NCBI GenBank assembly: GCA_902796775.1
Contig: CADBQK010000078.1
Location: forward strand, 1-12,154
DNA: 12,154 nucleotides
Direction of reading: 5' to 3'
DNA from: an uncultured Lachnospiraceae bacterium
GTDB taxonomy: Bacteria > Bacillota_A > Clostridia > Lachnospirales > Lachnospiraceae
The translations under genes and the position numbers were made by a program. Below the pieces are notes generated by a model that ran no database searches, was not told the DNA's origin, and worked only from the letters and a program-made list of their open reading frames with translations. Position 1 is the stretch's first letter. Each line of letters starts with the position of its first letter. Below, piece after piece: positions 1 to 12,154 of the stretch.

Positions 1-291
1 ATCATTCTGGATCCGGGAATCGGATTCGGGAAGACTTATGAGCAGAACCTCTTCGTTCTGGCTCATCTAAAAGAGTATTGCAGTCTGGGCTTTCCGATGC
101 TCCTGGGCTGTTCCCGGAAATCTGTTATCGGACTGACACTAAACCAGCCGACTGAAAGCCGTCTGGAGGGAACGCTTGTTACAACAACGCTGGCAGTCAT
201 GGCCGGTTATGCCTTTGTCCGCGTACATGATATTGAGGCGAATAAGAGATCTGTCATGATGGCTCAGGCGATTTTAAATAATAAGGGGTAA
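1..291 (+). CDS. folP: Dihydropteroate synthase, C-terminal part (5' end outside window)
   Basis: Joins 6-hydroxymethyl-7,8-dihydropterin diphosphate to p-aminobenzoate to give dihydropteroate, a cytosolic step of folate synthesis and the sulfonamide target. Only about the last 96 codons are present, reading in frame from base 1 to the TAA at 289-291; there is no start in the window. Visible family marks are DPGIGFGKT near the beginning (the pterin/diphosphate-binding loop region), GCSRKSVIG (the SRKS phosphate-binding loop) and RVHDIEA near the C-terminus, all in the usual order for the last third of the TIM barrel. The ATG at 97 is internal methionine, not a start. The fused folB-folK gene starts 3 bases after the stop, so the two are almost certainly co-transcribed. 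The next two enzymes of the same pathway lying together supports the call. Confidence 0.95.
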   Translation: MILDPGIGFGKTYEQNLFVLAHLKEYCSLGFPMLLGCSRKSVIGLTLNQPTESRLEGTLVTTTLAVMAGYAFVRVHDIEANKRSVMMAQAILNNKG

Positions 292-294
292 AAT

Positions 295-1170
295 ATGGAA
301 ATTATCAGTATCAAAGGTTTGGAAGTATATGCAAGCCACGGCTGTATCCCTTCGGAGAAAACACTTGGACAGAAATTCCTGATCAATGTGGACATGTATC
401 TGGATAGGAGCAGTCCCCGTATCAAGGATGAAATTGATGATACCGTTAGTTACGCCGATGTCTGCGATGATCTGTGCGAATGGATCCGGAAACCGGTATT
501 CAATCTGATCGAAGCTGCTGCCGAATCCCTGGTGCGCAGACTGATGATCGCTTACCCTGAAGTGAAAAAGGCGGTGCTGGAGCTGGAAAAGCCGAATGCA
601 CCGATGGAATATCATTTCGAGACGGTCAAGGTGCGTGTGGAAAGGGAACGGCATACGGTCTATCTGGGACTGGGCAGCAACCTGGGCAAACGGGAGGATA
701 CCATTGCAGATGCCATTGAGATGCTGGATGGTCACAACGATATCCATGTGCTGCAATGCTCGGCACTCTATGAGACAACTCCGTATGGGTATCTTGAACA
801 GCCGGATTTCATCAATGCCTGCGCAAAGGTCGAAACGATTCTGGAGCCCAGGCAGCTCCTGACGGTCATTCATGTGATTGAAGACAGTCTGGGCCGTGTG
901 CGCAAAGAGCGATGGGGTCCGAGGACGATCGATATCGATATTCTGCTGTTTGACAAGCAGGTCATCGATGAGGAGGATCTGCAGATCCCCCATCCGGAAA
1001 TGCCGAATCGTATGTTTGTACTTCAGCCGCTGAATGAGATTGCACCTTATATCAGGCATCCGTGGCTTGGCAAGACTGTCGGGCAGATGTTCCGTGAGCT
1101 GGAAGCCCGTGAGAAAGAGCAGCCTTCCGGGAATGAAATACATAAGATTCAGGAAACAGAGAAACAGTAA
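295..1170 (+). CDS. folK: Bifunctional dihydroneopterin aldolase / HPPK (FolB-FolK fusion)
   Basis: One 291-residue protein carries two consecutive folate enzymes. Residues 1 to about 118 are dihydroneopterin aldolase: YASHGCIPSEK holds the conserved Glu (E21), and a conserved Lys lies in LELEKPNAP (K99). Residues about 121-275 are 6-hydroxymethyl-7,8-dihydropterin pyrophosphokinase: GLGSNLG (125-131), YETTPYG (159-165), RWGPRTIDIDIL (207-218, with the two Mg-binding Asp D213 and D215) and the PHPEM...R.FVLQPL.EIAP block (232-251). The product of HPPK is the substrate of FolP, encoded just upstream. The last 20 or so residues are a charged tail without a recognisable domain. The start ATG is preceded by AAGGGG-like ribosome-site bases. 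Such fusions are known in Clostridia. Both active sites look intact. The symbol folB applies equally to the N-terminal half. Confidence 0.95.
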   Translation: MEIISIKGLEVYASHGCIPSEKTLGQKFLINVDMYLDRSSPRIKDEIDDTVSYADVCDDLCEWIRKPVFNLIEAAAESLVRRLMIAYPEVKKAVLELEKPNAPMEYHFETVKVRVERERHTVYLGLGSNLGKREDTIADAIEMLDGHNDIHVLQCSALYETTPYGYLEQPDFINACAKVETILEPRQLLTVIHVIEDSLGRVRKERWGPRTIDIDILLFDKQVIDEEDLQIPHPEMPNRMFVLQPLNEIAPYIRHPWLGKTVGQMFRELEAREKEQPSGNEIHKIQETEKQ

Positions 1171-1171
1171 A

Positions 1172-1188
1172 ACAAGCCGGCTGCTTGT
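1172..1188 (+). other. Short hairpin before the Ppx-like gene
   Basis: ACAAGC (1172-1177) and GCTTGT (1183-1188) form a perfect 6-bp stem with a 5-base loop, beginning just after the folK stop and ending 6 bases before the AGGAGG of the next gene. There is no T-run after it, so it is not a standard terminator. It might mark an mRNA processing site or tune translation, or be chance. Confidence 0.3.
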
Positions 1189-1207
1189 AAGAAAAGGAGG
1201 GTCAACA

Positions 1208-2746
1208 ATGGCCTGGCATATGTTTGCAGCAATCCATGTCAGCTCCGGGGAAGCTTCCATGAAGGTGTATGAAGTTTCCAAAAAGAACGGGCTGCGTCAG
1301 GTGGATTTTATCAAGTCCTATATTGAGCTGGGCGCGGACAGCTTTGCAAAAGGCTATATTGATCACAGTATGGTTTTTGAGTTGTGCCGTATCCTCAGCG
1401 GTTTTGCCGCGAAACTGGAGGAATACCGGATACAGGATTACTGTGCCTATGCGACTGGGGCCATCTGTGAAGCGGGAAACTGCCAGCTGATCCTGGACCA
1501 GATCCGCATCCGGACCGGGCTGACCTTCACCGCGGTCAGTAATGCACCGCAGCGCTTCCTGGTCCTGCGCTCACTCGCATCCGTTTTTCCCGAGTTTGAT
1601 AAGATTACCATGGAGGGAGCAGTCATCGTTGACATGGTAGGAACAGGGAGTATCCAGCTGACAGTTTACGAGGCAGGTGTCCTGATCTTCACCCAGAATC
1701 TGAGACTGGGACCGCTTCGGATCCGTGAAGTGCTGGGCGGTATGGAGGAGCGTTCGACCGAGTTCCTGTCCATTATGGAAGATTACATTGGGAATGATAT
1801 TGATACGCTGGCTCTGTATTTTGAGAACCATCGCGGGATCCGCCATCTGCTGTTCACCGGGGAGGAACTGCTTTCTGTTATGAAGATCGCCGGAGAGTTT
1901 GCTCCCGGCAAGGCGATGAAAAAGAACAAATTCGACGGTCTCTACGGCAGGATCAATAAGATGCATGCAGATGAGATCGCAGAGAAATATTCACTTCCTT
2001 ATGAGGTGGCCGGACTTCTCGGCCCGACCCTGTCTGTATACAGAGGTCTCCTGGAGATCACCGGAGCTTCGAGGGTGTGGGCATTTACAACAGATTTGTG
2101 CGACGGGATTGCCTGGGACTATTATGAAAAAAACATGAATGCAAAACCTGCGCATGATTTTCAGGGGGATATTCTTGGTTATGCCCGTGTGATCGCAGCC
2201 AAATACCAGACCAACAGCAGGCATACTGCCAATGTCGAACAGCTTGCCATGCTCATCTTTGATGCCGTGCGGAGGTATTCCTCTCTTTCCGAGCGCGACA
2301 GACTGCTGCTGAGGATGGCCTGCATTCTTCACGATATCGGCAAATACGTCAATATGGCAAACGGTACGGGGAACAGCTTCCGGATCGTGCAGGGGACGGA
2401 ATTTATCGGCATCTCCGAAGAGGAGAAACAGATCATTGCCTATGTGATCAAGTACAATTCCTGGCCTCATGTGCCAGGCGCCGGCGAGCTGGAGGATCAC
2501 CTCCCGTATACTGCTTACATCACGATGCTGAAACTGGCCGCCATCCTGCGGCTTGCCAATGCCATTGACCGGAGTCACAGGCAGAAAGTAAAAAAGATCC
2601 TGGTGAATGTCAAAGGAAAGAAGCTGTCGATCCGCGCGGATACGATCTATGATATTACACTGGAACAGACGATCGTTGAAGATAACGGCGCCTTCTTCGA
2701 AGAGGTGTACGGACTTGTTCCGCAGCTCAGGAGGAAGAGGAGGTAA
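1208..2746 (+). CDS. Ppx/GppA-like protein with C-terminal HD domain, active-site motifs degenerate
   Basis: A 512-residue protein of the exopolyphosphatase/guanosine pentaphosphatase fold (ASKHA ATPase superfamily) with an HD domain. The start is ATG 1208, 7 bases after a strong AGGAGG (1195-1200); the upstream in-frame ATG at 1034 lies deep in folK and is unlikely. Residues about 5-300 are Ppx/GppA-like. The family's first phosphate loop (IDxGS) reads IHVSSG (9-14), the ATxAxREAxN motif reads ATGAICEAGN (82-91, Arg to Cys at 87), the usual catalytic Glu region reads SNAPQRF (111-117) with no Glu, and the DIGGGS(T/I)(E/Q) loop reads DMVGTGSIQ (142-150). Residues about 330-460 form an HD domain with H339, H375-D376 and D454 in the expected order, so a metal site looks possible there. 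ppk1 follows with no gap, so a role linked to polyphosphate or (p)ppGpp is a reasonable guess. Because the first-domain motifs are altered, I do not claim phosphatase activity; it may be a sensor or regulatory partner. Confidence 0.85.
   Translation: MAWHMFAAIHVSSGEASMKVYEVSKKNGLRQVDFIKSYIELGADSFAKGYIDHSMVFELCRILSGFAAKLEEYRIQDYCAYATGAICEAGNCQLILDQIRIRTGLTFTAVSNAPQRFLVLRSLASVFPEFDKITMEGAVIVDMVGTGSIQLTVYEAGVLIFTQNLRLGPLRIREVLGGMEERSTEFLSIMEDYIGNDIDTLALYFENHRGIRHLLFTGEELLSVMKIAGEFAPGKAMKKNKFDGLYGRINKMHADEIAEKYSLPYEVAGLLGPTLSVYRGLLEITGASRVWAFTTDLCDGIAWDYYEKNMNAKPAHDFQGDILGYARVIAAKYQTNSRHTANVEQLAMLIFDAVRRYSSLSERDRLLLRMACILHDIGKYVNMANGTGNSFRIVQGTEFIGISEEEKQIIAYVIKYNSWPHVPGAGELEDHLPYTAYITMLKLAAILRLANAIDRSHRQKVKKILVNVKGKKLSIRADTIYDITLEQTIVEDNGAFFEEVYGLVPQLRRKRR
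2729..2743 (+). promoter_or_regulatory. Tandem Shine-Dalgarno sites before ppk1
   Basis: Two AGGAGG hexamers (2729-2734 and 2738-2743) sit inside the last codons of the Ppx-like gene. The second is only 3 bases from ATG 2747 but 9 bases from the in-frame ATG 2753; the first is 12 bases from ATG 2747. The spacing favours ATG 2753 as a real alternative start, which would shorten the protein by two residues. The abutting TAA-ATG also suggests translational coupling. Confidence 0.6.
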
Positions 2747-4900
2747 ATGAAAATGAAAGGTCCATACAGCGCTCCGGCCAACTTCCGCAACAGAGAACTG
2801 AGCTGGCTGGAGTTTGACGCCCGGGTACTGGGGGAAGCTAAGGATACATCGATTCCCCTGTTTGAAAGGCTGAAATTTTTAAGTATCACATCCAGCAATC
2901 TGGATGAGTTTTTCATGGTCAGAGTCGCATCCCTTAAGGACATGGTCAATTCCAAATATAAGGGAAAGGATATCGCTGGCATGACGCCCTCTGAGCAGCT
3001 GGAAGCGATCAGCGTCCGGACGCATGCACTGGTAGCAGAGCAGTACAGCAGCTACCGCCGCTCCTTTAAACCTTCTCTAGTCCAGCAGCATCTGCTTATT
3101 GTAGATGATTATCATCAGCTGAATCCCAGGCAGGAGGAATTTGTTGATGAATATTTCCGTTCAGAGGTATATCCGATTCTGACTCCTATGGCTGTCGATT
3201 CTTCCAGACCCTTCCCGCTGGTCCGCAACAAGACCCTGAATATCGGTGCGCTGATCCGGGGAAAAGGACAGAAGAAAGGGCATGATTTTGCAACAGTCCA
3301 GGTGCCATCCGGTCTGGCCAGGTATCTGTCCATTCCCTCAGAAGATCCTCAGGATACCACGATCATCCTGCTGGAGCAGGTCATTGCCCGGAATCTGGGA
3401 ACGCTTTTTTCGGGCTATGAAGTGATCTGCGCTTCTCCTTACAGGATCATGCGCAATGCAGATCTTCCCATTGATGAGGATGATGCTGCCGATCTGCTGA
3501 GCGAGGTGCAGGAGGTTCTGCGGCGCCGCCAGTGGGGTGAGGTGATCCGGCTGGAGGTCGAAGACGGCGTAGATAAAAGGCTGCTGAAGATTCTGAAAAA
3601 GGAGTTTGATGTAGGAGAGGATTCCATCTACCAGATTGGCGGACCGCTGGATCTGACTTTCCTGATGAAGGTCAGCGGAATGAAGGAGTTTGCGCATCTG
3701 CGCTATGAGCCTTATACCCCTCAGCCGGTCCCGGGGATTGCTAAAGGGGACGATCTTTTTGAAAAGATCCGTGAGAAGGATATACTTCTTTCCCATCCAT
3801 ACCAGACATTTGACCCGGTTGTGGATCTGATCCGGCAGGCAGCTGCAGATGAGCAGGTACTGGCGATCAAAATGACTTTGTACCGGGTCAGTGCCGATTC
3901 ACCGGTCATTGCTTCTCTTGCAAAAGCAGCGGAAAACGGGAAGCAGGTAACTGTTCTGGTCGAGCTGAAAGCACGTTTTGATGAAGAAAACAATATTATC
4001 TGGGCGAAAAAGCTGGAGCAGGCCGGCTGCCATGTAATCTATGGCCTGAGAGGGCTCAAGACACACAGCAAGATCGCGCTGGTTGTCCGCCGGGACGAGG
4101 AGGGGATCCGACGTTATGTCCATCTGGGTACCGGCAATTATAATGATGCGACAGCAAAACTCTATACCGATATGGGTATACTGACCTGTTCCGAACAGAT
4201 TGGAGAGGATGCGACAGCATTCTTCAATATGATCTCCGGATATTCCGAACCGCCCCGCTGGAACAAACTCTCACTGGCGCCTTTGTGGCTGCGGGACAGA
4301 TTCCTTTCCCTGATCCGCCGGGAGACGGAGCATGCCCTGGAAGGCCGCCCGGCTAAGATCATCGCAAAAATGAATTCGCTGTGTGATGGACAGATCATTG
4401 AATCGCTTTATGAAGCCTCCTGCGCAGGAGTGGAAATCGATCTGATCGTCCGGGGGATCTGCTGCCTGAAGGCAGGTATTCCAGGCCTGAGCGAACACAT
4501 TCGCGTGCGCTCCATCGTAGGAAATTTTCTGGAACACAGCAGGATTTTCTACTGGTATAACGATGGGTATGAAGAAATTTATATGGGCAGCGCAGACTGG
4601 ATGCCCAGAAATCTGGACAAGCGTGTAGAGATCCTGTTTCCGGTAGAAGCGGAAGACTGTAAAGCGGCAGTCAGACACCTGCTGGATGTCCAGCTGGCTG
4701 ATAATGTAAAGGCATCCATTCTGCAGCCGGACGGCACTTATATTAAGATCGATAAGCGGGGCAAAGTACTGGTGAATGCCCAGCAGCAGCTCTGCGAGGA
4801 AGCAGCCGCAGCCTGGAGAAAAAAGCCTGAAGGGCTCGAAACAGCCAGCCGCTGCTTTATCCCCGAATACAGGGAAGAGGCAGAGGAAACCGGACAATAG
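2747..4900 (+). CDS. ppk1: Polyphosphate kinase 1
   Basis: Transfers the gamma-phosphate of ATP reversibly onto inorganic polyphosphate chains. At 717 residues it is full length for PPK1. The N-terminal helical domain begins with the family signature NRELSWLEFDARVL (residues 16-29) and SSNLDEFFMVRVA. The middle head domain follows to about residue 325. Two phospholipase-D-like catalytic domains then carry the two histidines: HLGTGNYND (H459, the expected autophosphorylated His) and FLEHSRIFYW (H597). The Arg-rich RYVHLG region and GSADWMPRNLDKRVE near residue 620 also match the family. The gene abuts the stop of the Ppx-like gene, so the two are made from one mRNA and probably coupled in translation. 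ATG 2753 is an equally good start by ribosome-site spacing. Nothing appears broken. About 126 bases without a gene follow, and no strong terminator is visible there. Confidence 0.97.
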   Translation: MKMKGPYSAPANFRNRELSWLEFDARVLGEAKDTSIPLFERLKFLSITSSNLDEFFMVRVASLKDMVNSKYKGKDIAGMTPSEQLEAISVRTHALVAEQYSSYRRSFKPSLVQQHLLIVDDYHQLNPRQEEFVDEYFRSEVYPILTPMAVDSSRPFPLVRNKTLNIGALIRGKGQKKGHDFATVQVPSGLARYLSIPSEDPQDTTIILLEQVIARNLGTLFSGYEVICASPYRIMRNADLPIDEDDAADLLSEVQEVLRRRQWGEVIRLEVEDGVDKRLLKILKKEFDVGEDSIYQIGGPLDLTFLMKVSGMKEFAHLRYEPYTPQPVPGIAKGDDLFEKIREKDILLSHPYQTFDPVVDLIRQAAADEQVLAIKMTLYRVSADSPVIASLAKAAENGKQVTVLVELKARFDEENNIIWAKKLEQAGCHVIYGLRGLKTHSKIALVVRRDEEGIRRYVHLGTGNYNDATAKLYTDMGILTCSEQIGEDATAFFNMISGYSEPPRWNKLSLAPLWLRDRFLSLIRRETEHALEGRPAKIIAKMNSLCDGQIIESLYEASCAGVEIDLIVRGICCLKAGIPGLSEHIRVRSIVGNFLEHSRIFYWYNDGYEEIYMGSADWMPRNLDKRVEILFPVEAEDCKAAVRHLLDVQLADNVKASILQPDGTYIKIDKRGKVLVNAQQQLCEEAAAAWRKKPEGLETASRCFIPEYREEAEETGQ

Positions 4901-4910
4901 AAACATCGAT

Positions 4911-4986
4911 TATGCTTCACAAGCCAGCTTCTATAGGGTATACTAAAGAACATAAACTTCGATGATCAGAAAAATACAGAAGCATA
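4911..4986 (+). repeat. 8-bp inverted repeat flanking the candidate promoter
   Basis: TATGCTTC (4911-4918) is repeated inverted as GAAGCATA (4979-4986), with 60 bases between. The left arm overlaps the proposed -35 box and the right arm lies in the leader before the ribosome site. It could be a pair of half-sites for a regulator or a long-range stem in a read-through transcript from ppk1, but 8 bp over this distance can occur by chance. Confidence 0.35.
4916..4944 (+). promoter_or_regulatory. Candidate sigma-A promoter for the xpaC-like/telA pair
   Basis: TTCACA (4916-4921) and TATACT (4939-4944) are separated by exactly 17 bases, each matching 5 of 6 consensus positions. Transcription would start near 4951, giving a leader of about 75 bases before the gene at 5027. 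It lies in the largest gene-free gap of the window (4901-5026), at a change of functional theme, which supports it. It was found by eye and not scored. Confidence 0.6.
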
Positions 4987-5026
4987 GTATCAGAGAAATG
5001 AGCAGCTTAAAGAAAGGGTGGTAGTG

Positions 5027-6310
5027 ATGTCAGACAGACCGGGCGATCTGATCGATGAGATCGTAGACAGTGCCATGAACTCAATGGACTTTGAACATCT
5101 GAGTAAAGAGATCGGAGATTCCGTGCAGACGGTTTTTGACGAACTTGGCATTGTGCTGAATGTAAACATCAGCGATCACATACGCCAGAGGGGTTACGGC
5201 GGTACGGCTTCGCGGACTGCCAGTTCCCGTGTCGGGCGGAGAGGGCAGACAGCCAGGGAGGCTGTCCCGAGGGAGAAACCGGTAGCAATGCGCAATCCGC
5301 CTGGATCGCTTTCCGGCATTGTCCTGACAGCTCTGGGAGCAACATTCACAGCAATCTTCGGCCTGTGGGAGCTGGTGGTCGTGATCCTGGGTATGACGAT
5401 TCCCGATTTTGGCGGGCCGGGGGCGCTGACAGCAGCATTGTCCCTGATACCGCTGGCTGGCTCGATCGGGGCTCTGGTAGGCGGTATTCGTCTGAACAAC
5501 CGTGTAAAACGTTTCAGAAAATACATGAAGGAGATCGGAAAGCGCAAGTTCTGTGAGATCAAGGAGCTGGCGATGGCAATCGGCAAGTCTGACAAGTTTG
5601 TAGCCGATGACCTTCAGGACATGATCAACCGGAATTTTTTCACAAATGCTCATCTGGATACCATGAAGACGACTCTGATGCTGGATGAAGAGACCTGGCA
5701 GCAGTACCTGGCTTCCATGAATGAATATCAGCAGAGGCTCGAGAGAGAAGAGGAAGAAGGCAGGGTCTTCGCACCGGATGGGACCCAGCTGGATCCCGAG
5801 CTTGCCAAAGCTCTGGAGGAAGGCGAAAAATACATCCGTCAGGTTCGTGAAGCCAATGATGCGATACCAGGGGATGAGTTTACGGCCAAGCTTAACCGGA
5901 TGGAGGAGCTGATCCGCCAGATCTTTGTAGTCGTGCGCAAAAAGCCGGATCAGCTTTACAAACTCCGCCGTTTTATGAAGTATTATATGCCGACGACAGT
6001 CAAACTTCTGAAGGCATATCAGGAGCTGGATGCCCAGCCGGAGGGTGAGACGGTATTAAAATCCAAAAAAGAAATCGAGGATACGGTCGAAACCATCAAT
6101 TTTGCTTACGAAAAGCTGCTGGACAGCTTTTTTGAAGAAGATGCTCTTGATATCAGCTCAGACATTTCCGTGCTGCACAGCATGTTTGCCCAGGAGGGGC
6201 TGGGAGAGGATCCGTTCGCAGAGACCGGGTCGCCGGCCGGCGAGATGGAGATCGGCCAGGCACTTGCCGCAAGCCAGGCACAGACAGCGCAGCAGATGGA
6301 GGATATGTGA
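5027..6310 (+). CDS. XpaC-like membrane protein (BCIP hydrolysis family)
   Basis: A 427-residue protein resembling the family named for 5-bromo-4-chloroindolyl phosphate hydrolysis (XpaC), whose true biochemical role is unknown. I chose ATG 5027, 8 bases after AAAGGG (5013-5018); the in-frame GTG at 5018 overlaps that site and is less likely. Residues 1-50 are acidic and helical. Residues 53-90 are a basic, Ser/Gly/Arg-rich linker. Two membrane segments follow, about 97-123 and 132-155. Residues about 160-232 look like a helix-turn-helix or winged-helix fold (KRKFCEIKELAMAIGKSDKFV...DLQDMINRNFF). Residues 235-375 are long charged helices, probably coiled coil, as in XpaC proteins. It is longer than the Bacillus XpaC that I recall at roughly 200 residues, consistent with clostridial versions. 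A TelA-family gene follows 50 bases later, the usual xpaC-telA pairing, so the two products probably work together at the inner face of the membrane. Confidence 0.8.
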   Translation: MSDRPGDLIDEIVDSAMNSMDFEHLSKEIGDSVQTVFDELGIVLNVNISDHIRQRGYGGTASRTASSRVGRRGQTAREAVPREKPVAMRNPPGSLSGIVLTALGATFTAIFGLWELVVVILGMTIPDFGGPGALTAALSLIPLAGSIGALVGGIRLNNRVKRFRKYMKEIGKRKFCEIKELAMAIGKSDKFVADDLQDMINRNFFTNAHLDTMKTTLMLDEETWQQYLASMNEYQQRLEREEEEGRVFAPDGTQLDPELAKALEEGEKYIRQVREANDAIPGDEFTAKLNRMEELIRQIFVVVRKKPDQLYKLRRFMKYYMPTTVKLLKAYQELDAQPEGETVLKSKKEIEDTVETINFAYEKLLDSFFEEDALDISSDISVLHSMFAQEGLGEDPFAETGSPAGEMEIGQALAASQAQTAQQMEDM

Positions 6311-6360
6311 TCATACCAGACACAATAAAACAGTACTTTTTCAGAGAGGAGACTTAAAGA

Positions 6361-7533
6361 ATGAGCGAAGACATGGATATGGGATATACACCGGAACTGA
6401 CACTGGAAGGCTTTGGATCAGCAGCTGCTGCACAGGAAGCACCGGCTGCACCTGAGATTGAATTGCAGACAGAAGAGGAAAAGAAGGAAGATCCGTTTGA
6501 CGAGAGCAAGCTGACTCCCGAAGAGAAGCGTATTGTCGAGGAGTTTGCCAAGCAGATCGATATTACCAATTCCTCCCAGATTATGCAGTACGGTGCTACA
6601 GCTCAGCAAAAGGTCGCACAGTTTTCCGAGAGTGCCCTTGAGAGTGTCAAGACAAAGGATCTGGGAGAAGTCGGCGGCATGATCTCGGGTGTTGTGACAG
6701 AGCTTAAAAGCTTTGATGTGGATGAGCAGGATAAAGGCCTGTTCGGCCTCTTTAAAAAGAGCGCTAATAAAGCAACGGCAGCAAAGGCAAAGTATGCGAC
6801 CGTCGAGAAGAATGTCAATACGATCGTGGATGCGCTGGAGCATCATCAGATCACGCTGATGAAGGATGTCGCCACTCTGGACAAGCTTTATGAGATGAAT
6901 ATGCAGTATTATAAAGAGCTGTCCATGTACATCATTGCCGGCAAAAAGAAGCTTGCCATGATTGAGTCCGAGGAGATTCCGGAGCTCAAGCGTAAAGCTC
7001 AGACCTCCGGCACACAGGAGGATGCGCAGGCTGTAGCAGATTTGCAGGCTCTGGCAGACCGCTTTGAAAAGAAACTGCATGACCTGGAGCTGACCAGGAT
7101 TATTTCCATGCAGATGGCTCCCCAGATCCGTCTGGTACAGAATAATGATGTTCTGATGTCCGACAAGATCCAGTCGACCATTGTCAATACGATCCCGCTC
7201 TGGAAGAGCCAGATGCTGATCGCACTTGGTCTTGCCAATTCGGAGAAGGCAGCAAAGGCTCAGAGTGAAGTGACCAATCTGACCAACGAGATGCTGCGTA
7301 AGAATGCCGAGAAGCTCAAGAGCGCTTCTATCCAGGTGGCTAAAGAGTCTGAGAGAGGTATCGTGGATATCGAGACTCTTAAGACAACCAATGAGCAGCT
7401 GATCAGCACTTTGGATGAGGTCCTCCAGATCCAGACAGAGGGCAGAGCCAAGAGGAAAGCGGCTGAAAGTGAGCTGCGGGCGATTGAGGATGAGCTGCGC
7501 CAGAAGCTGATGAATGCCCGTTCCTTTAAGTAA
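6361..7533 (+). CDS. TelA family protein (toxic anion / cell-envelope stress)
   Basis: A 390-residue soluble, almost wholly helical protein of the TelA/KlaA family. Members have been linked to tellurite resistance and, in Gram-positives, to tolerance of cell-envelope-acting antimicrobials; the molecular mechanism is not established. Residues 1-45 are an acidic, Ala/Glu-rich, probably disordered tail. The TelA domain spans about 50-385 and shows the family pattern: a short GLFGLFKKSANKA segment (126-138), then KYATVEKNVNTIVDALEHHQ, LYEMNMQYYKELSMYIIAGKKKL and, late, LWKSQMLIALGLANSEKA. Most of the rest is heptad-like coiled coil. No signal peptide or membrane segment is seen, so membrane contact would come through the XpaC-like partner encoded just upstream. 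The start ATG has AGAGGAG (6345-6351) 9 bases before it. The pair probably shares the promoter at 4916-4944. Tellurite resistance should not be assumed from the family name. Confidence 0.88.
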   Translation: MSEDMDMGYTPELTLEGFGSAAAAQEAPAAPEIELQTEEEKKEDPFDESKLTPEEKRIVEEFAKQIDITNSSQIMQYGATAQQKVAQFSESALESVKTKDLGEVGGMISGVVTELKSFDVDEQDKGLFGLFKKSANKATAAKAKYATVEKNVNTIVDALEHHQITLMKDVATLDKLYEMNMQYYKELSMYIIAGKKKLAMIESEEIPELKRKAQTSGTQEDAQAVADLQALADRFEKKLHDLELTRIISMQMAPQIRLVQNNDVLMSDKIQSTIVNTIPLWKSQMLIALGLANSEKAAKAQSEVTNLTNEMLRKNAEKLKSASIQVAKESERGIVDIETLKTTNEQLISTLDEVLQIQTEGRAKRKAAESELRAIEDELRQKLMNARSFK

Positions 7534-7543
7534 GATAGAGATA

Positions 7544-7591
7544 GGAAAGCTTGTAAAACAACAGCTAAACCAGTAAGATAAAAAGCTTTCC
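7544..7591 (+). repeat. Perfect 9-bp inverted repeat upstream of dgt
   Basis: GGAAAGCTT (7544-7552) recurs inverted as AAGCTTTCC (7583-7591), with 30 bases between. Each arm itself contains the palindrome AAGCTT. The right arm ends directly against the GGAGG ribosome site of dgt (7592-7596). If transcription reads through from telA, the RNA stem would sit against the ribosome site. If it starts at the candidate promoter between the arms, the arms could instead be operator half-sites. No T-run follows, so it is not a standard terminator. Confidence 0.55.
7551..7579 (+). promoter_or_regulatory. Weak candidate promoter for dgt-dnaG-sigma-trmK
   Basis: TTGTAA (7551-7556) and TAAGAT (7574-7579) are 17 bases apart, each matching 4 of 6 positions of the sigma-A consensus. 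Transcription would begin around 7586, leaving a leader of under 20 bases that still includes the GGAGG site. The match is modest and the short leader is a mark against it; it is listed because the cluster needs a promoter and this 69-base gap is the natural place. Confidence 0.35.
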
Positions 7592-7602
7592 GGAGGACAG
7601 CT

Positions 7603-8610
7603 ATGAATATCCGTGAGCAGCAGGAAGCATGGGAGGCCAGGCATCTGAGCCCCTATGCTTCGCTGAGCATGCATTCAGCCGGACGTGACAGGGAGGAGGA
7701 GCCCTGTGACGTCCGTCCTGTATACCAGAGAGACAGGGACCGGATCCTGCACTGTAAGGCATTCCGAAGGATGAAGCATAAGACCCAGGTCTTTCTGGCC
7801 CCGCGCGGGGATCATTACCGGACCCGTCTGACCCATACGCTGGAGGTGGCGCAGATCGCCAGAACGGTTGCAAGGGCTCTGCGTCTGAATGAGGATCTGA
7901 CAGAGGCGATCGCCCTGGGTCACGATCTCGGACACACTCCATTCGGACATTCCGGGGAGGCAGTCCTGAATGAGGTCTGCCCATTTGGCTTTAAGCATAA
8001 TGAACAGAGTGTCCGGATCGTTCAAATCCTTGAAAACAATGGCAGGGGATTGAATCTGACAAAGGAAGTACGCGACGGGATCCTTTGTCACGGGACCAGT
8101 ATGATGCCATCTACTTTAGAGGGCAGAGTGGTACGTCTCGCCGATAAAATTGCCTATATCAATCATGACATTGATGATGCAATCCGGGGCAGGATCATCA
8201 CGGAAGAGGATATTCCGATGATCTACAGGAGGGTGCTCGGCGACAGTGCGAAGATAAGGCTGGATACCCTGATCCATGACGTTATAGAAAACAGCCTCGG
8301 ACAGCCGGACATACTTATGTCAGAGGAGATCGGAGAGGCTATGTTCGGCCTGCGCTCCTATATGTTCAAAAGTGTGTATACAAATCCGGCAGCCAAAGAT
8401 CAGGAGTCCAAGGCGCAGAACATGCTTCGGATCCTGTATGAGCACTTTTGCCGTCATACAGATCAGATGCCGGAAGAGTTCCTCACGCTGATTGACAGGG
8501 AAGAGCCGGTAGAAAAAGTAGTATGTGATTATATTGCAGGGATGACAGACCAGTATTCCATCATGGTCTACGAAGAGCTGTATGTTCCCGCTGCATGGAA
8601 GGTTTACTGA
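7603..8610 (+). CDS. dgt: Deoxyguanosinetriphosphate triphosphohydrolase-like protein (dNTPase)
   Basis: Cuts dNTPs to deoxynucleoside and tripolyphosphate, which affects dNTP pools. At 335 residues it is the shorter Firmicutes form of the family. The HD metal-site residues are present in order: H78 in RTRLTHTLEV, H107-D108 in ALGHDLGHTPFGHSGE and D181 in RLADKIAYINHD. Other family blocks are the N-terminal RDRDRILHCKAFRRMKHKTQVF (41-64), FKHNEQSVRIV, and the C-terminal YIAGMTDQYSI with EELYVPAAW. Start ATG 7603 has GGAGG (7592-7596) 6 bases upstream. dnaG begins 3 bases after the stop, so dNTP clearance and primer synthesis are encoded together, an arrangement I recall as common in Clostridia. 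All visible metal residues are intact. Substrate preference among dNTPs cannot be told from sequence; many non-enterobacterial members act on several dNTPs. Confidence 0.93.
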   Translation: MNIREQQEAWEARHLSPYASLSMHSAGRDREEEPCDVRPVYQRDRDRILHCKAFRRMKHKTQVFLAPRGDHYRTRLTHTLEVAQIARTVARALRLNEDLTEAIALGHDLGHTPFGHSGEAVLNEVCPFGFKHNEQSVRIVQILENNGRGLNLTKEVRDGILCHGTSMMPSTLEGRVVRLADKIAYINHDIDDAIRGRIITEEDIPMIYRRVLGDSAKIRLDTLIHDVIENSLGQPDILMSEEIGEAMFGLRSYMFKSVYTNPAAKDQESKAQNMLRILYEHFCRHTDQMPEEFLTLIDREEPVEKVVCDYIAGMTDQYSIMVYEELYVPAAWKVY

Positions 8611-8613
8611 AAA

Positions 8614-10443
8614 ATGTTTTATCCGGATGATGCCATAGAGCAGGTTAGGGCCGCCAGCAATATCGTGGATGTGATCGGCGGTTATGTCAGATTGAGAAGG
8701 AGCGGCAGCTCTTATGTCGGTTTATGTCCGTTTCATAATGAAAAGTCGCCTTCTTTTTCTGTCAGCGGCGAAAAGCAGCTGTATTACTGCTTTGGCTGCG
8801 GAGCCGGCGGAAATGTGTTTACCTTCCTGATGGAATATGAAAATATGTCCTTCCCGGAGGCGGTCGCCCATCTGGCAGAGAGAGCGAATATCGCCCTCCC
8901 GGAGAGGGATTACAGTGATGAAGAAAAACAGGCCAGGAGCCGCCGGCAGGTGCTGCTGGAGATCCAGCGGCTTGCGGCCAATTATTATTATCACAAGCTG
9001 CAGTCTGCAGATGGTGAAACGGCCCGGAAATATCTGGACGGGCGCGTACTCAGCATGGAGACACGCCGTCATTTCGGGCTCGGATATTCACCGAAAGTCC
9101 GGGATGAGCTGTATCGCTTCTTAAAAAGCAGGGAGTATACGGATGAGCAGCTTCAGGAGAGCGGGCTCATTCTCTTTGATGAAAAAGCCGGAGCGCATGA
9201 CCGCTTCTGGAACCGGGTCATGTTCCCGATTATGGATGCTTCCGGACATGTGGTTGGCTTCGGCGGACGTGTAATGGGGGATGGCAAACCCAAATATCTG
9301 AATTCTCCTGAATCGATGATCTTTAACAAAAGCCGTACATTGTATGGGCTGAATTTTGCTCGTACAGGCAAAAAGCCCTACCTCATCTTATGCGAAGGAT
9401 ACCTGGATGTGATCGCCATGCATCAGGCAGGCTTTACCAGCGCTGTTGCCACACTGGGTACGGCTTTTACGGCACAGCATGCCCTGATGGTCCGCAGGTA
9501 TACACAGCAGGTACGCCTGGCCTACGATAGTGATGGTGCGGGGAAAAAGGCTGCACTGCGTGCAATCGGCCAGCTCAGAGCGGCCGGTATTTCAGCCCGG
9601 GTCATCCATATGGATCCCTATAAGGATCCTGATGAGTTCATCAAGGCAGAGGGCGGCGAAGCTTTTCAGGCGCGGATCGATGAAGCGGAGTCTGCTTTTA
9701 TGTTTGAAGTGGCTATGGAGCAGGAGAAGCACCAGATCTCCGATCCGGAGGGCAGAGCTTCATTTATCAAAGCTGTGGCGAAAATGCTTCTGATCTTTCC
9801 GGAGGAGCTGGAGAGGAAGGTCTATATCGATGCTGTTTCCAGCGCCTATGGGATTGATGCATCTGGTCTGACCAGGATGGTAAATAATTTCGGGGCATCC
9901 TATACACCGGAGCAGATCGATGAGATGCGCAGAGGACCGCTTTCGGATGAGACTGCCGGGCGGCAGAACAGTTTTGCTGAGGATCCGTTATCCGGCCAGT
10001 CGGGAAGCATGGCCGGTGCGGGCGCCAATGCAGGCAGCGGGGTGCAGGATAAGATCCGTCTCTCCCAGAAGCTCCTTTTAACCTATATGATTGAAGATGT
10101 CAGTCTTTTTGAAAAATACAGCGGCATCATCAGTGAAGAGGATTTCAGCGATCCACTGTATAAAAAGGCAGTGTCCATGCTCTTTGCGGAATATGCTTCA
10201 ACCGGCCAGGTAACGCCGGCAAGGATCGTAGGATGCTTTGACAATGCGCAGGAGCAGCAGGAGATCGCCTCGCTCTTTACAACAAAGATCGTAGATGGCG
10301 ATGATCCCAAAACAAAGGAGAAGGCTATCTCGGATGTGATCCGCAATATCAAGGAAGACCGCCGCAGACGCCAGCTTGAAAGCTCTCCTACTATGGAAGA
10401 GCTGATGAAAGCGTACAAAGAGTTGAAAAAGGGACGAAACTAA
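8614..10443 (+). CDS. dnaG: DNA primase
   Basis: Makes the RNA primers for replication, acting with the DnaB-type helicase at the fork. The 609-residue protein is normal length. The zinc-binding domain has C38, H41, C59 and C62 (CPFHNEKSPSF...YYCFGCGAGG). The RNA polymerase core runs from about 115 to 425, with the TOPRIM residues in LCEGYLDVIAMH (E261) and AYDSDGAGKKA (D305, D307), then DPYKDPDEF (334-342). Residues about 438-479 are a Gly/Ala/Ser-rich linker, and the rest is the helical helicase-interaction domain. GGAAGG (8597-8602), inside the end of dgt, lies 11 bases before the ATG. The stop overlaps the ATG of the sigma gene by one base (TAATG at 10441-10445), so the two are translationally coupled, as in classic dnaG-rpoD operons. 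Nothing unusual in the catalytic parts. Confidence 0.97.
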   Translation: MFYPDDAIEQVRAASNIVDVIGGYVRLRRSGSSYVGLCPFHNEKSPSFSVSGEKQLYYCFGCGAGGNVFTFLMEYENMSFPEAVAHLAERANIALPERDYSDEEKQARSRRQVLLEIQRLAANYYYHKLQSADGETARKYLDGRVLSMETRRHFGLGYSPKVRDELYRFLKSREYTDEQLQESGLILFDEKAGAHDRFWNRVMFPIMDASGHVVGFGGRVMGDGKPKYLNSPESMIFNKSRTLYGLNFARTGKKPYLILCEGYLDVIAMHQAGFTSAVATLGTAFTAQHALMVRRYTQQVRLAYDSDGAGKKAALRAIGQLRAAGISARVIHMDPYKDPDEFIKAEGGEAFQARIDEAESAFMFEVAMEQEKHQISDPEGRASFIKAVAKMLLIFPEELERKVYIDAVSSAYGIDASGLTRMVNNFGASYTPEQIDEMRRGPLSDETAGRQNSFAEDPLSGQSGSMAGAGANAGSGVQDKIRLSQKLLLTYMIEDVSLFEKYSGIISEEDFSDPLYKKAVSMLFAEYASTGQVTPARIVGCFDNAQEQQEIASLFTTKIVDGDDPKTKEKAISDVIRNIKEDRRRRQLESSPTMEELMKAYKELKKGRN

Positions 10444-11531
10444 TGAGGGATGACGACAGGACTCTGTTTTTGGAGAGGCTCCGGGAGCTGGCCGGCAGCG
10501 GGGCAGGTGCAGTGACCCAGAAAGAGGCAGCGGCCCGTTTTGCAGATCTGCAGCTGACAGATGCGCAGCTGGAACAGGTGTTTTCCTATCTGCAAAATGC
10601 TGGTGTGATGATTCTGGATAGAGATCGGAGAAAGTCAGGTTTTTTTCCTGAAACGGATCCGGAGGATCGTTTATCCAGGCTGCTTTCAGAGGGAAATCTG
10701 TCGCTTCCGCCTGCTGAAAAAGGGCATGCAGCTGCAGCTGAATATCTGCAGGAGCTCAAAGCCCTCACTCAGTTGTCTGCTGAAGAGGACAGGCAGCTGT
10801 CCGATGTATATCTCAGTGGTGATCAGCAGGCTGCAGGGCAGTTGGCACAGGGAAATCTGCAGCTGGTTTTTCTGATTACAAAAGAATATTATGTCAATGA
10901 GGCGGTCCGAAAAGAACATGCCCCAGCTTTTTACGATCTGATCCAGGAAGGCAATCTGGGGTTATACACCGCATTATCCAGGTATCAGGGGACAGGCGGG
11001 CTCAGCTTTCAGGAATATGCTTCTTTGTGGATCCGTCAGGCTGTTTTGATGGCCATTGTCCGCAGCGAACGGGAGTCAGTTTTTGCCGGAGAAATCGCGC
11101 AGATCCTGAACCGCATCCGGGAAGCAGGTGATGAGATCGCAAAGGATCTGGGAGAGGCACCGGCTGCCTCGGAGCTGGCTCAGTACCTGGATATCCCATC
11201 AGCAAAGCTTACGAAGGCACTTTCCTTTGCAAAGGACAGCGAGATCCAGATCGGCACATCCGCGGTGGAGGAGGAAGAAGGAGTTGATCCACAGAGACTG
11301 GAAGAGATACGGGAGCTGGCGGTATCGGCGATCGACCAGCTTTATCCGCTGGAAATCAGTGTACTCACCTATCTGCTTGGTCTGAAGGATGGAAGAAGCC
11401 GTACTTTTGCCCGCTGTGCTGCACGATTCCGGATCAGTCAGGAAAGAGTCCGCCGGATACTGGCCCGGGCTATGCACCGGGGAAGATCCGTTAAGAGGAG
11501 AGAAGATGGTTCTATCAGCCAGACTGAATAA
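10443..11531 (+). CDS. Divergent sigma-70 family factor in the rpoD position
   Basis: A 362-residue sigma-70 family protein directs RNA polymerase to promoters. Residues about 7-58 resemble region 1.1 of primary sigma factors (VTQKEAAARFADLQLT...VFSYLQNAGVMIL). About 96-135 corresponds to region 1.2. The core-binding region 2 is clear (QGNLQLVFLITKEYY, then FYDLIQEGNLGLY, 136-175). However, about six extra residues lie between 2.1 and 2.2 (150-161). The -10 reading segment is EYASLWIRQAVLMAI, with Leu (195) for the first of two tandem Trp, and Leu202-Met203 for Thr-Arg. The RTIRxPxH stretch of region 3.0 is missing. The LGDF finger of region 3.2 is replaced by a short acidic stretch (273-285). 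In region 4.2 the recognition helix reads ISQERVRRIL (Gln333 and Arg338 where RpoD has Arg and Gln). The gene order dgt-dnaG-this-trmK is that of rpoD, with a one-base overlap with dnaG and only AAGGGA upstream. I do not give the symbol rpoD: it may be a diverged primary sigma or a paralogue with other targets. Confidence 0.85.
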   Translation: MRDDDRTLFLERLRELAGSGAGAVTQKEAAARFADLQLTDAQLEQVFSYLQNAGVMILDRDRRKSGFFPETDPEDRLSRLLSEGNLSLPPAEKGHAAAAEYLQELKALTQLSAEEDRQLSDVYLSGDQQAAGQLAQGNLQLVFLITKEYYVNEAVRKEHAPAFYDLIQEGNLGLYTALSRYQGTGGLSFQEYASLWIRQAVLMAIVRSERESVFAGEIAQILNRIREAGDEIAKDLGEAPAASELAQYLDIPSAKLTKALSFAKDSEIQIGTSAVEEEEGVDPQRLEEIRELAVSAIDQLYPLEISVLTYLLGLKDGRSRTFARCAARFRISQERVRRILARAMHRGRSVKRREDGSISQTE

Positions 11532-12154
11532 GGCAGCAAGCCTGGCCGAGCCGGGGTATGTCATTGCAGATATCGGGACAGACCATGCTTATCTGCCAAT
11601 CTGGCTGGTACAGGAGAATATCTGCCCCTCTGCCATCGCAATGGATGTCAGGAAGGGCCCCCTGGAAAGGGCGGCGGACAACATCCGTATGTACAAGCTG
11701 GAGAATCGGATACAGGTACGTTTGTCTGACGGGCTGAAGGAGCTTCGCCCGGGAGAGGTGCAGTGCGTGGTGCTGGCCGGGATGGGCGGACCGCTGATCC
11801 GGGATATCCTGGAGACTTCTGCCAAAACAGCTCACTCGCTCCGCTCTCTCATATTGCAGCCCCAATCCGAGGCCGGGCTTGTGCGGCATTATCTATTTGA
11901 AAACGGATATGTGATCGACGCGGAAGAGGCGGTCTGGGATGCCGGGAAATACTACCAGATGTTCCGGGCAAGACCGCTGGGGAGTCCCGATGATGCAGCG
12001 GGGTTTCCTGTTTACAGTGAAGAAGAGGATTTTCTGTACGGCAAGATCCTGATCGATACAGCCCATCCGGTCCTGGAAAGCTTCCTGCACAAACAGGAAG
12101 AAAAGGCGCAGGCACTGTTTAAACAGCTGGATGGACATGGTTCTGCCAGGGCGG
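11506..12154 (+). CDS. trmK: tRNA (adenine22-N1)-methyltransferase, 3' end outside window
   Basis: Adds a methyl group from SAM to N1 of A22 in tRNA. About 216 codons are present and the frame is still open at base 12154. Family marks are the SAM loop VIADIGTDHAYLPIWL (residues 19-34), MDVRKGPLERAADNI, the catalytic-region VLAGMGGPLIRDIL, and LILQPQSEAGLVRHYLFENGY, followed by a helical C-terminal part rich in Glu and Lys. The start ATG has GAGGAG (11495-11500) 5 bases upstream and lies 26 bases inside the end of the sigma gene in another frame, so the two are probably coupled. The usual continuation in Clostridia is a Nif3-like gene, outside this window. Visible motifs are intact. Confidence 0.93.
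   Translation, partial: MVLSARLNKAASLAEPGYVIADIGTDHAYLPIWLVQENICPSAIAMDVRKGPLERAADNIRMYKLENRIQVRLSDGLKELRPGEVQCVVLAGMGGPLIRDILETSAKTAHSLRSLILQPQSEAGLVRHYLFENGYVIDAEEAVWDAGKYYQMFRARPLGSPDDAAGFPVYSEEEDFLYGKILIDTAHPVLESFLHKQEEKAQALFKQLDGHGSARA

Follow-up and report, generated by a model that had tools for sequence, protein, structure and literature searches.

A divergent sigma-70 family protein in the rpoD position of the dnaG operon of an uncultured Lachnospiraceae bacterium

Introduction

The dnaG-sigA operon of bacteria has been described as highly conserved (PMC2824700), and RpoD itself is among the least changeable of bacterial proteins. Here we describe a stretch of 12,154 nucleotides (nt) from an uncultured Lachnospiraceae bacterium (GenBank assembly GCA_902796775.1, contig CADBQK010000078.1, positions 1 to 12,154, forward strand), the whole of which is called the window, where the rpoD position behind dnaG is taken by a strongly divergent protein of the sigma-70 family, termed the slot sigma. 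No description of a degenerate dnaG-linked rpoD was found in the open-licence PMC literature, as judged by titles and the openings of abstracts.

The contacts that a canonical RpoD makes with promoter DNA are known at the level of single residues, given here in the numbering of Escherichia coli sigma-70. As far as the cited excerpts go, F427, Y430, W433 and W434 hold the −11A, with W433 and W434 wedging the fork (PMC10911233; PMC2613000), and a highly deleterious effect has been reported for mutation of these two tryptophans (PMC10911233). Q437 and T440 are described as reading position −12, H455 and E458 as acting at the extended −10 element, and R584 and E585 as acting at −35 (PMC10911233; PMC2613000), while the sigma finger is said to pre-organise template DNA and to shape initial transcription (PMC12445709). 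By the group definitions given for this family, Group 2 sigma factors are near Group 1 (RpoD/SigA) and have no region 1.1; in RpoS the determinants of DNA binding are retained (PMC4598750).

Locus and divergence of the slot sigma

The slot sigma (362 amino acids; 10443..11531 on the + strand, as are all features of the window below; ORF, NCBIfam and Pfam) is encoded by an intact open reading frame (ORF) of 362 codons with zero internal stops, and its gene lies in a dnaG-linked rpoD locus. Its start overlaps the stop of dnaG as TAATG (10441-10445, read from the sequence), and the next gene, trmK (11506..12154; Pfam PF04816, 166 bits), starts at 11506, giving an overlap of 26 nt, and leaves the window at its end. 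Both the TAATG overlap and the downstream trmK had been pointed out in a first-pass annotation made from the letters of the window, and both stand. Upstream are an ordinary DNA primase gene, dnaG (8614..10443; NCBIfam and homologue identities), and a gene for a dgt-like HD-domain phosphohydrolase (7603..8610; Pfam), and the same dgt-dnaG-rpoD-trmK order, with a canonical RpoD, is found in the relative L007. In the DNA-level records listed (15 of 18), the match spans dgt and dnaG and ends before the sigma gene.

The sigma fold is present in the slot sigma, in which Pfam regions 2, 3 and 4 barely pass their cut-offs (31.2, 29.2 and 25.9 bits against 24, 25.3 and 24.1) and the NCBIfam superfamily model TIGR02937 scores 59.7 bits (cut-off 42.9). 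Region 1.1 reaches 18.8 bits, below its cut-off of 22.5, and region 1.2 gives no match at E 0.1; the corresponding values of a control RpoD, P0034 from Lachnospiraceae bacterium KH1T2, are 86, 111, 81, 41 and 69 bits for regions 2, 3, 4, 1.1 and 1.2. The best NCBIfam model among the best 25 of 50 families compared is that of RpoD (PRK09210), against which the slot sigma scores 136.9 bits, far under the equivalog cut-off of 572, and P0034 scores 638.5. Within the same comparison the Group 3 models stay below their cut-offs (RpoH 63.7 of 323.1, FliA/WhiG 45.5 of 189.6 and SigK 44.2 of 298.65 bits).

The slot sigma is about 30% identical to RpoDs. A database search with it gave at least 6583 matches, and among the best 120 listed a single metagenome protein, P0002 (51%), stands apart, the other 118 besides the slot sigma's own entry lying at 26-31%. 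Its own sequence cluster has nine members. No further member of the divergent family came from a region-limited search (seven more matches, 25-26%), which also missed P0002, so that its negative is weak; a scan of genome contigs gave two Bacteroidota loci at 26-27% identity, and among 40 relatives of genome G001 the matches, in 38 of them, are only 26-33% identical to the slot sigma.

How unusual this is can be gauged from loci in which DnaG and RpoD are linked. The set comprised 13 such loci (11 with a full and two with a partial RpoD) and left out L008, where no rpoD was found beside dnaG, and L102 and L103, which are pieces without dnaG. In the 55 pairs among the 11 full loci, RpoD identity is 50.7-85.8% at a DnaG identity of 29.6-87.5%, with a lowest residual z of −2.0, compared with 27.5-32.9% for the sigma at 34.2-51.9% for DnaG (z −4.7 to −6.0) in the 13 comparisons of the window, two of them against partial RpoDs. 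L007 and L093, for example, are 50.6% identical in DnaG and 80.9% in RpoD, versus 48.9% and 30.7%, respectively, for the window and L007. The sigma is an extreme outlier beside an ordinary DnaG. Among the best 120 matches listed for this DnaG, identity is 65% to P0122, 60% to P0123 and P0124, and 57-58% to the rest besides the near-identical P0121; the only named relative is Coprococcus catus (now Pseudocoprococcus catus; 57%), and the matches point to Lachnospiraceae.

Loss of promoter-contact residues

Residues of the slot sigma were mapped on E. coli sigma-70 (L104) and compared with 129 canonical rows (P0003-P0120 and the RpoDs of 11 loci), which are best matches and not a random sample; the positions examined in each region were chosen by us. 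Residues 1-62 (10443..10628; Pfam and pairwise scores) form an N-terminus that resembles region 1.1, and this resemblance, noticed in the first-pass annotation, does exist in the weak, below-cut-off form given above. At the position of region 1.2 (residues 86-112, 10698..10778; Pfam and alignment) the DPVRMYL motif is lost and two of eight examined positions are kept. Regions 2.1-2.4 (residues 113-207, 10779..11063; alignment) retain the DLIQEGNLGL core motif of region 2.1-2.2 (L139, D165, Q168, E169 and N171) and carry an insertion of seven residues between about 152 and 162 and the changes W433 to L195, T440 to L202 and R441 to M203. Here 9/17 examined positions are kept in 2.1-2.2, 4/11 in 2.3 and 4/7 in 2.4. 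We take the stretch from L384 to N409, which holds this motif, to be a main contact with core polymerase.

In regions 3.0-3.1 (residues 208-263, 11064..11231; alignment) RTIRIPVH, each position of which is found in 128 or 129 of the 129 canonical rows, is replaced by RESVFAGE, with H455 changed to E217 and E458 to Q220 and 1/10 examined positions of region 3.0 kept. In the region 3.2 linker (residues 264-290, 11232..11312; alignment; 3/15 kept) the sigma finger is deleted, S517-F522 being a gap both in the slot sigma and in P0002. The absence of the RTIRxPxH stretch and of the finger had been read correctly from the sequence by the first-pass annotation. Region 4 (residues 291-350, 11313..11492; alignment; 9/28 kept) shows R584 changed to Q333 and Q589 to R338 and keeps E585 and R588.

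Nearly the same pattern is found in P0002. Both proteins keep L384, D403, Q406, E407, N409, F427, Y430, W434, Q437, E585 and R588, and both have changed W433 (to L), T429 (to E), T440 (to L), R441 (to M or L), R451, P453, H455 (to E), E458 (to Q or R), R554 (to L) and R584 (to Q), of which W433, T440, R441, H455, E458 and R584 are each shared by 127-129 of the 129 canonical rows.

On this anatomy the slot sigma fits no sigma group cleanly, as it combines the gene position of Group 1 and a faint likeness to region 1.1 with the lack of the residues by which Groups 1 and 2 read DNA. It is like the Group 1 Lachnospiraceae-type RpoDs (P0034, L007 and L093) in gene position (L007), domain order 2-3-4, the DLIQEGNLGL motif and the below-cut-off region 1.1-like N-terminus, and unlike them in its low identity and in lacking a detectable region 1.2, the extended −10 contacts, the finger and the −10 and −35 reading residues W433, T440, R441 and R584. 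It would be like Group 2 sigmas such as RpoS as an RpoD-related secondary sigma that is presumably non-essential, but neither the close kinship to Group 1 nor the common DNA-reading residues of that group are found, and it has the region 1.1-like stretch that scores below the cut-off. The sporulation, flagellar and heat shock sigmas of Group 3 also have regions 2, 3 and 4 and changed promoter contacts; unlike them, the slot sigma occupies the rpoD slot and scores lower against their models than against that of RpoD.

An AF2 (AlphaFold2) model of the slot sigma (predicted local distance difference test 75.6; predicted template modelling score 0.42) has the sigma domains, and its matches among the Foldseek and VIA rows shown are to sigma chains or to models that include a sigma; root-mean-square deviations of whole-chain matches exceed 20, probably due to free domain placement. 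A single helix, 189-236, spans regions 2.3-3.1 in this model, whereas a P0034 model built as a control from the same 35 rows has a break at 231-235, in the RTIRIP stretch. As this part is predicted with modest confidence (block means 65 and 64), we treat the fused helix as no more than a lead.

Shared conservation and descent

P0002 (348 amino acids) is 52.8% identical to the slot sigma, and this identity is spread very unevenly, with 84% in regions 2.2-2.4 and 70% in 3.0-3.1 versus 5% in the linker and 15% in 3.2. The slot sigma has 51% and 20% identity to the canonical consensus in regions 2.2-2.4 and 3.0-3.1, respectively. The variance of windowed identity, 15.5, is greater than the largest of 2000 shuffles (11.8). 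Among the 167 columns present that are at least 95% conserved in canonical RpoDs, 54 are kept in both proteins, 45 carry the same change in both and 68 differ otherwise. That the linker drifted and these 45 changes did not is a sign of selection, as far as can be told from two sequences. P0002 differs from the slot sigma in keeping R99 and Q589 and in having two of the seven inserted region 2 residues.

The first-pass annotation had proposed drift in place, and descent of the slot sigma from a Lachnospiraceae rpoD is supported by the canonical RpoD at the same gene order in L007, by the ordinary DnaG, by one of two trees and by the N-terminus. In a comparison with 118 proteins and 13 loci, the highest scores of residues 1-64 are those with P0040 and P0034, though the margins are small (90 against 86 and 85); "Lachnospiraceae-type" is our label, P0034 being so named and L007 and L093 being placed by DnaG. 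The sigma-70 tree with dnaG-linked relatives that had been suggested gave, under LG+G4, a branch of about 9.1 for the slot sigma and P0002, nested among 17 Lachnospiraceae-type rows (98/95), a placement that a mixture model did not reproduce (below). An approximately unbiased (AU) test did not reject a clade joining the pair to five selected Lachnospiraceae-type rows (p 0.118), a result that does not establish the clade.

Possible role and alternative explanations

It appears probable that an rpoD copy was remodelled, without leaving its position, to become a specialised sigma of the dnaG operon and that a canonical RpoD elsewhere does the housekeeping. The rpoD of this member of the Lachnospiraceae would have stayed in the dnaG operon and ceased to act as the housekeeping sigma, and, since many of the parts that read and open ordinary promoters have been lost, a real RpoD, moved or duplicated, is probably kept elsewhere in the genome. 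The slot sigma could dock on core polymerase through its DLIQEGNLGL motif and present the new conserved surfaces of regions 2.3-3.1, seen in the comparison with P0002, giving a minor holoenzyme that most likely reads a different class of promoter, its contacts at −12, the extended −10 element and −35 having changed. With half of the W433/W434 wedge and no finger, opening and priming would be unlike those of sigma-A, and because it shares an operon with dnaG, the protein would be made during growth. If this is true, an rpoD locus that escaped constraint would be a natural experiment on the rise of new sigma specificities and on what a primary sigma can do without, the core-docking motif having been kept, the contacts rewritten and the finger dropped; it is also a warning that gene position does not prove a housekeeping sigma.

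Several observations weigh against this explanation. In the core-binding region 2.1-2.2, 8/17 examined positions are changed, and T440 and R584 changes have each been isolated singly as sigma-70 specificity mutants (PMC2613000, in the part cited), so these two changes are compatible with a housekeeping role. No second RpoD was found, no genome of this lineage having been searched for one, and some of the 45 changes common to the two proteins go back to their common ancestry. The mixture-model tree joins the pair to Paenibacillus-type RpoDs by a branch of length 10, the fork being unstarred (83/90), and the two trees, which differ in model and row set, conflict; as the branches are saturated, descent from the local rpoD is drawn from the slot, the N-terminus and one of the two trees. 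Lastly, codon preference is the weakest of the nine window genes (own minus +1 frame 0.131; the other eight 0.258-0.661) and the GC content of third codon positions (GC3) is the lowest (0.529 versus 0.575-0.630), values that fit a weakly expressed gene, one of foreign origin or one under relaxed constraint, and that lower the odds of a specialised local copy slightly and raise those of foreign origin or decay.

Sigma-A-like promoter candidates in the window had been taken in the first-pass annotation as a hint at a normal RpoD elsewhere. Sigma-70-like sites number 11 versus a mean of 10.6 expected (standard deviation 3.3), which is chance level. One candidate, TTCACA-17-TATACT in the ppk-xpaC gap, the longest gap (4916..4944; shuffles), is matched by 3.1% of shuffles (p 0.031, uncorrected), with p 0.09-0.91 in four other stretches; because five stretches were tested it is a hint only, and the promoter argument is weak. 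The remainder of that interpretation fares better: drift in place has the support given above, and a true RpoD elsewhere with this copy specialised, the first of its two alternatives, is favoured by the loss of W433 and the other contacts and by the conservation with P0002.

The retention of the core motif despite the loss of W433 and the finger would also suit a sigma-like regulator that binds core polymerase and does not initiate alone, for instance a competitor of sigma-A or an activator-dependent factor, and finger mutations or deletions are reported, in the excerpt cited, to alter transcription profiles and pausing (PMC12445709). Such a role is unlikely, as regions 2.3-2.4 and 3.0-3.1 are strongly conserved relative to P0002, as DNA contacts would be, and E585 and R588 are kept. 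Were the slot sigma instead the only primary sigma of its lineage, RNA polymerase and promoters would have co-evolved with a holoenzyme lacking W433, RTIRIPVH and the finger and using a code unlike TTGACA/TATAAT. It does occupy the rpoD slot with a region 1.1-like N-terminus, the core motif and Y430, W434, Q437, E585 and R588, and no other RpoD was seen, though no genome of this lineage was searched, but losing W433, the region 3.0 contacts and the finger would force housekeeping promoters to change, the longest gap holds a sigma-A-like promoter (at the uncorrected p above), nearest kin are just 52.8% identical and the codon preference is weak for a housekeeping gene, which makes this quite improbable.

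There is a slim chance that a foreign or phage sigma replaced rpoD in the slot, as the saturated branch without firm placement in the mixture-model tree and the codon and GC3 values would allow. Exact-peptide scans of viral contigs with three queries, a weak negative, gave no relative of the slot sigma; among the phage and plasmid matches listed, which include phage-annotated rpoD genes, identity is 23-33%, in no case higher than with ordinary RpoDs; and the N-terminus scores best against Lachnospiraceae-type RpoDs. A DnaG scan of viral contigs gave at most 42% identity in the 80 loci listed of 436. Least credible of all is that the gene is an rpoD copy in decay or that its sequence is an artefact: the codon and GC3 values and the modest identity to P0002 suit it, but the ORF is intact, the cluster has nine sequences, and decay or assembly error is unlikely because P0002 carries the same changes at 45 near-invariant positions with strongly uneven conservation.

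Additional sigma genes and other features

Additional rpoD copies do arise, including rpoD-like ones in gut bacteria (L096 and L102), and two RpoD homologues that form a flavobacterial pair have been published (PMC3587595, as excerpted). L096 (MT837906.1, 4155-6004) has a tandem canonical-looking rpoD pair after dgt-dnaG, 57.9% and 62.9% identical to P0034, the second leaving the record. L102 (MT837549.1, 3-1148) has a lone RpoD-like sigma, 37.6% identical to P0034, whose upstream side is off the record and which has no trmK downstream; it keeps W433/W434 and R584 and has Q437 and T440 changed. These belong to a series of MT83xxxx records named "Bacteriophage sp." from human faeces (L005-L008, L093-L098 and L102), which look like mislabelled pieces of bacterial chromosomes because 9/11 carry dnaG and then rpoD. 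Plasmid pB6464 of Alkaliphilus sp. B6464 (L103, 250-5256) carries two different sigma-70 genes in tandem adjoining a plasmid-borne secA.

The complete gene order of the window on the + strand is folBK, ppx/gppA, ppk, xpaC-like, telA, dgt, dnaG, sigma and trmK (Pfam and ORFs). FolB and FolK (HPPK) domains are found within a single ORF (295-1170), and a Ppx/GppA-HD protein abuts polyphosphate kinase (1034-4900, junction at 2746/2747), perhaps as a make-and-break pair.

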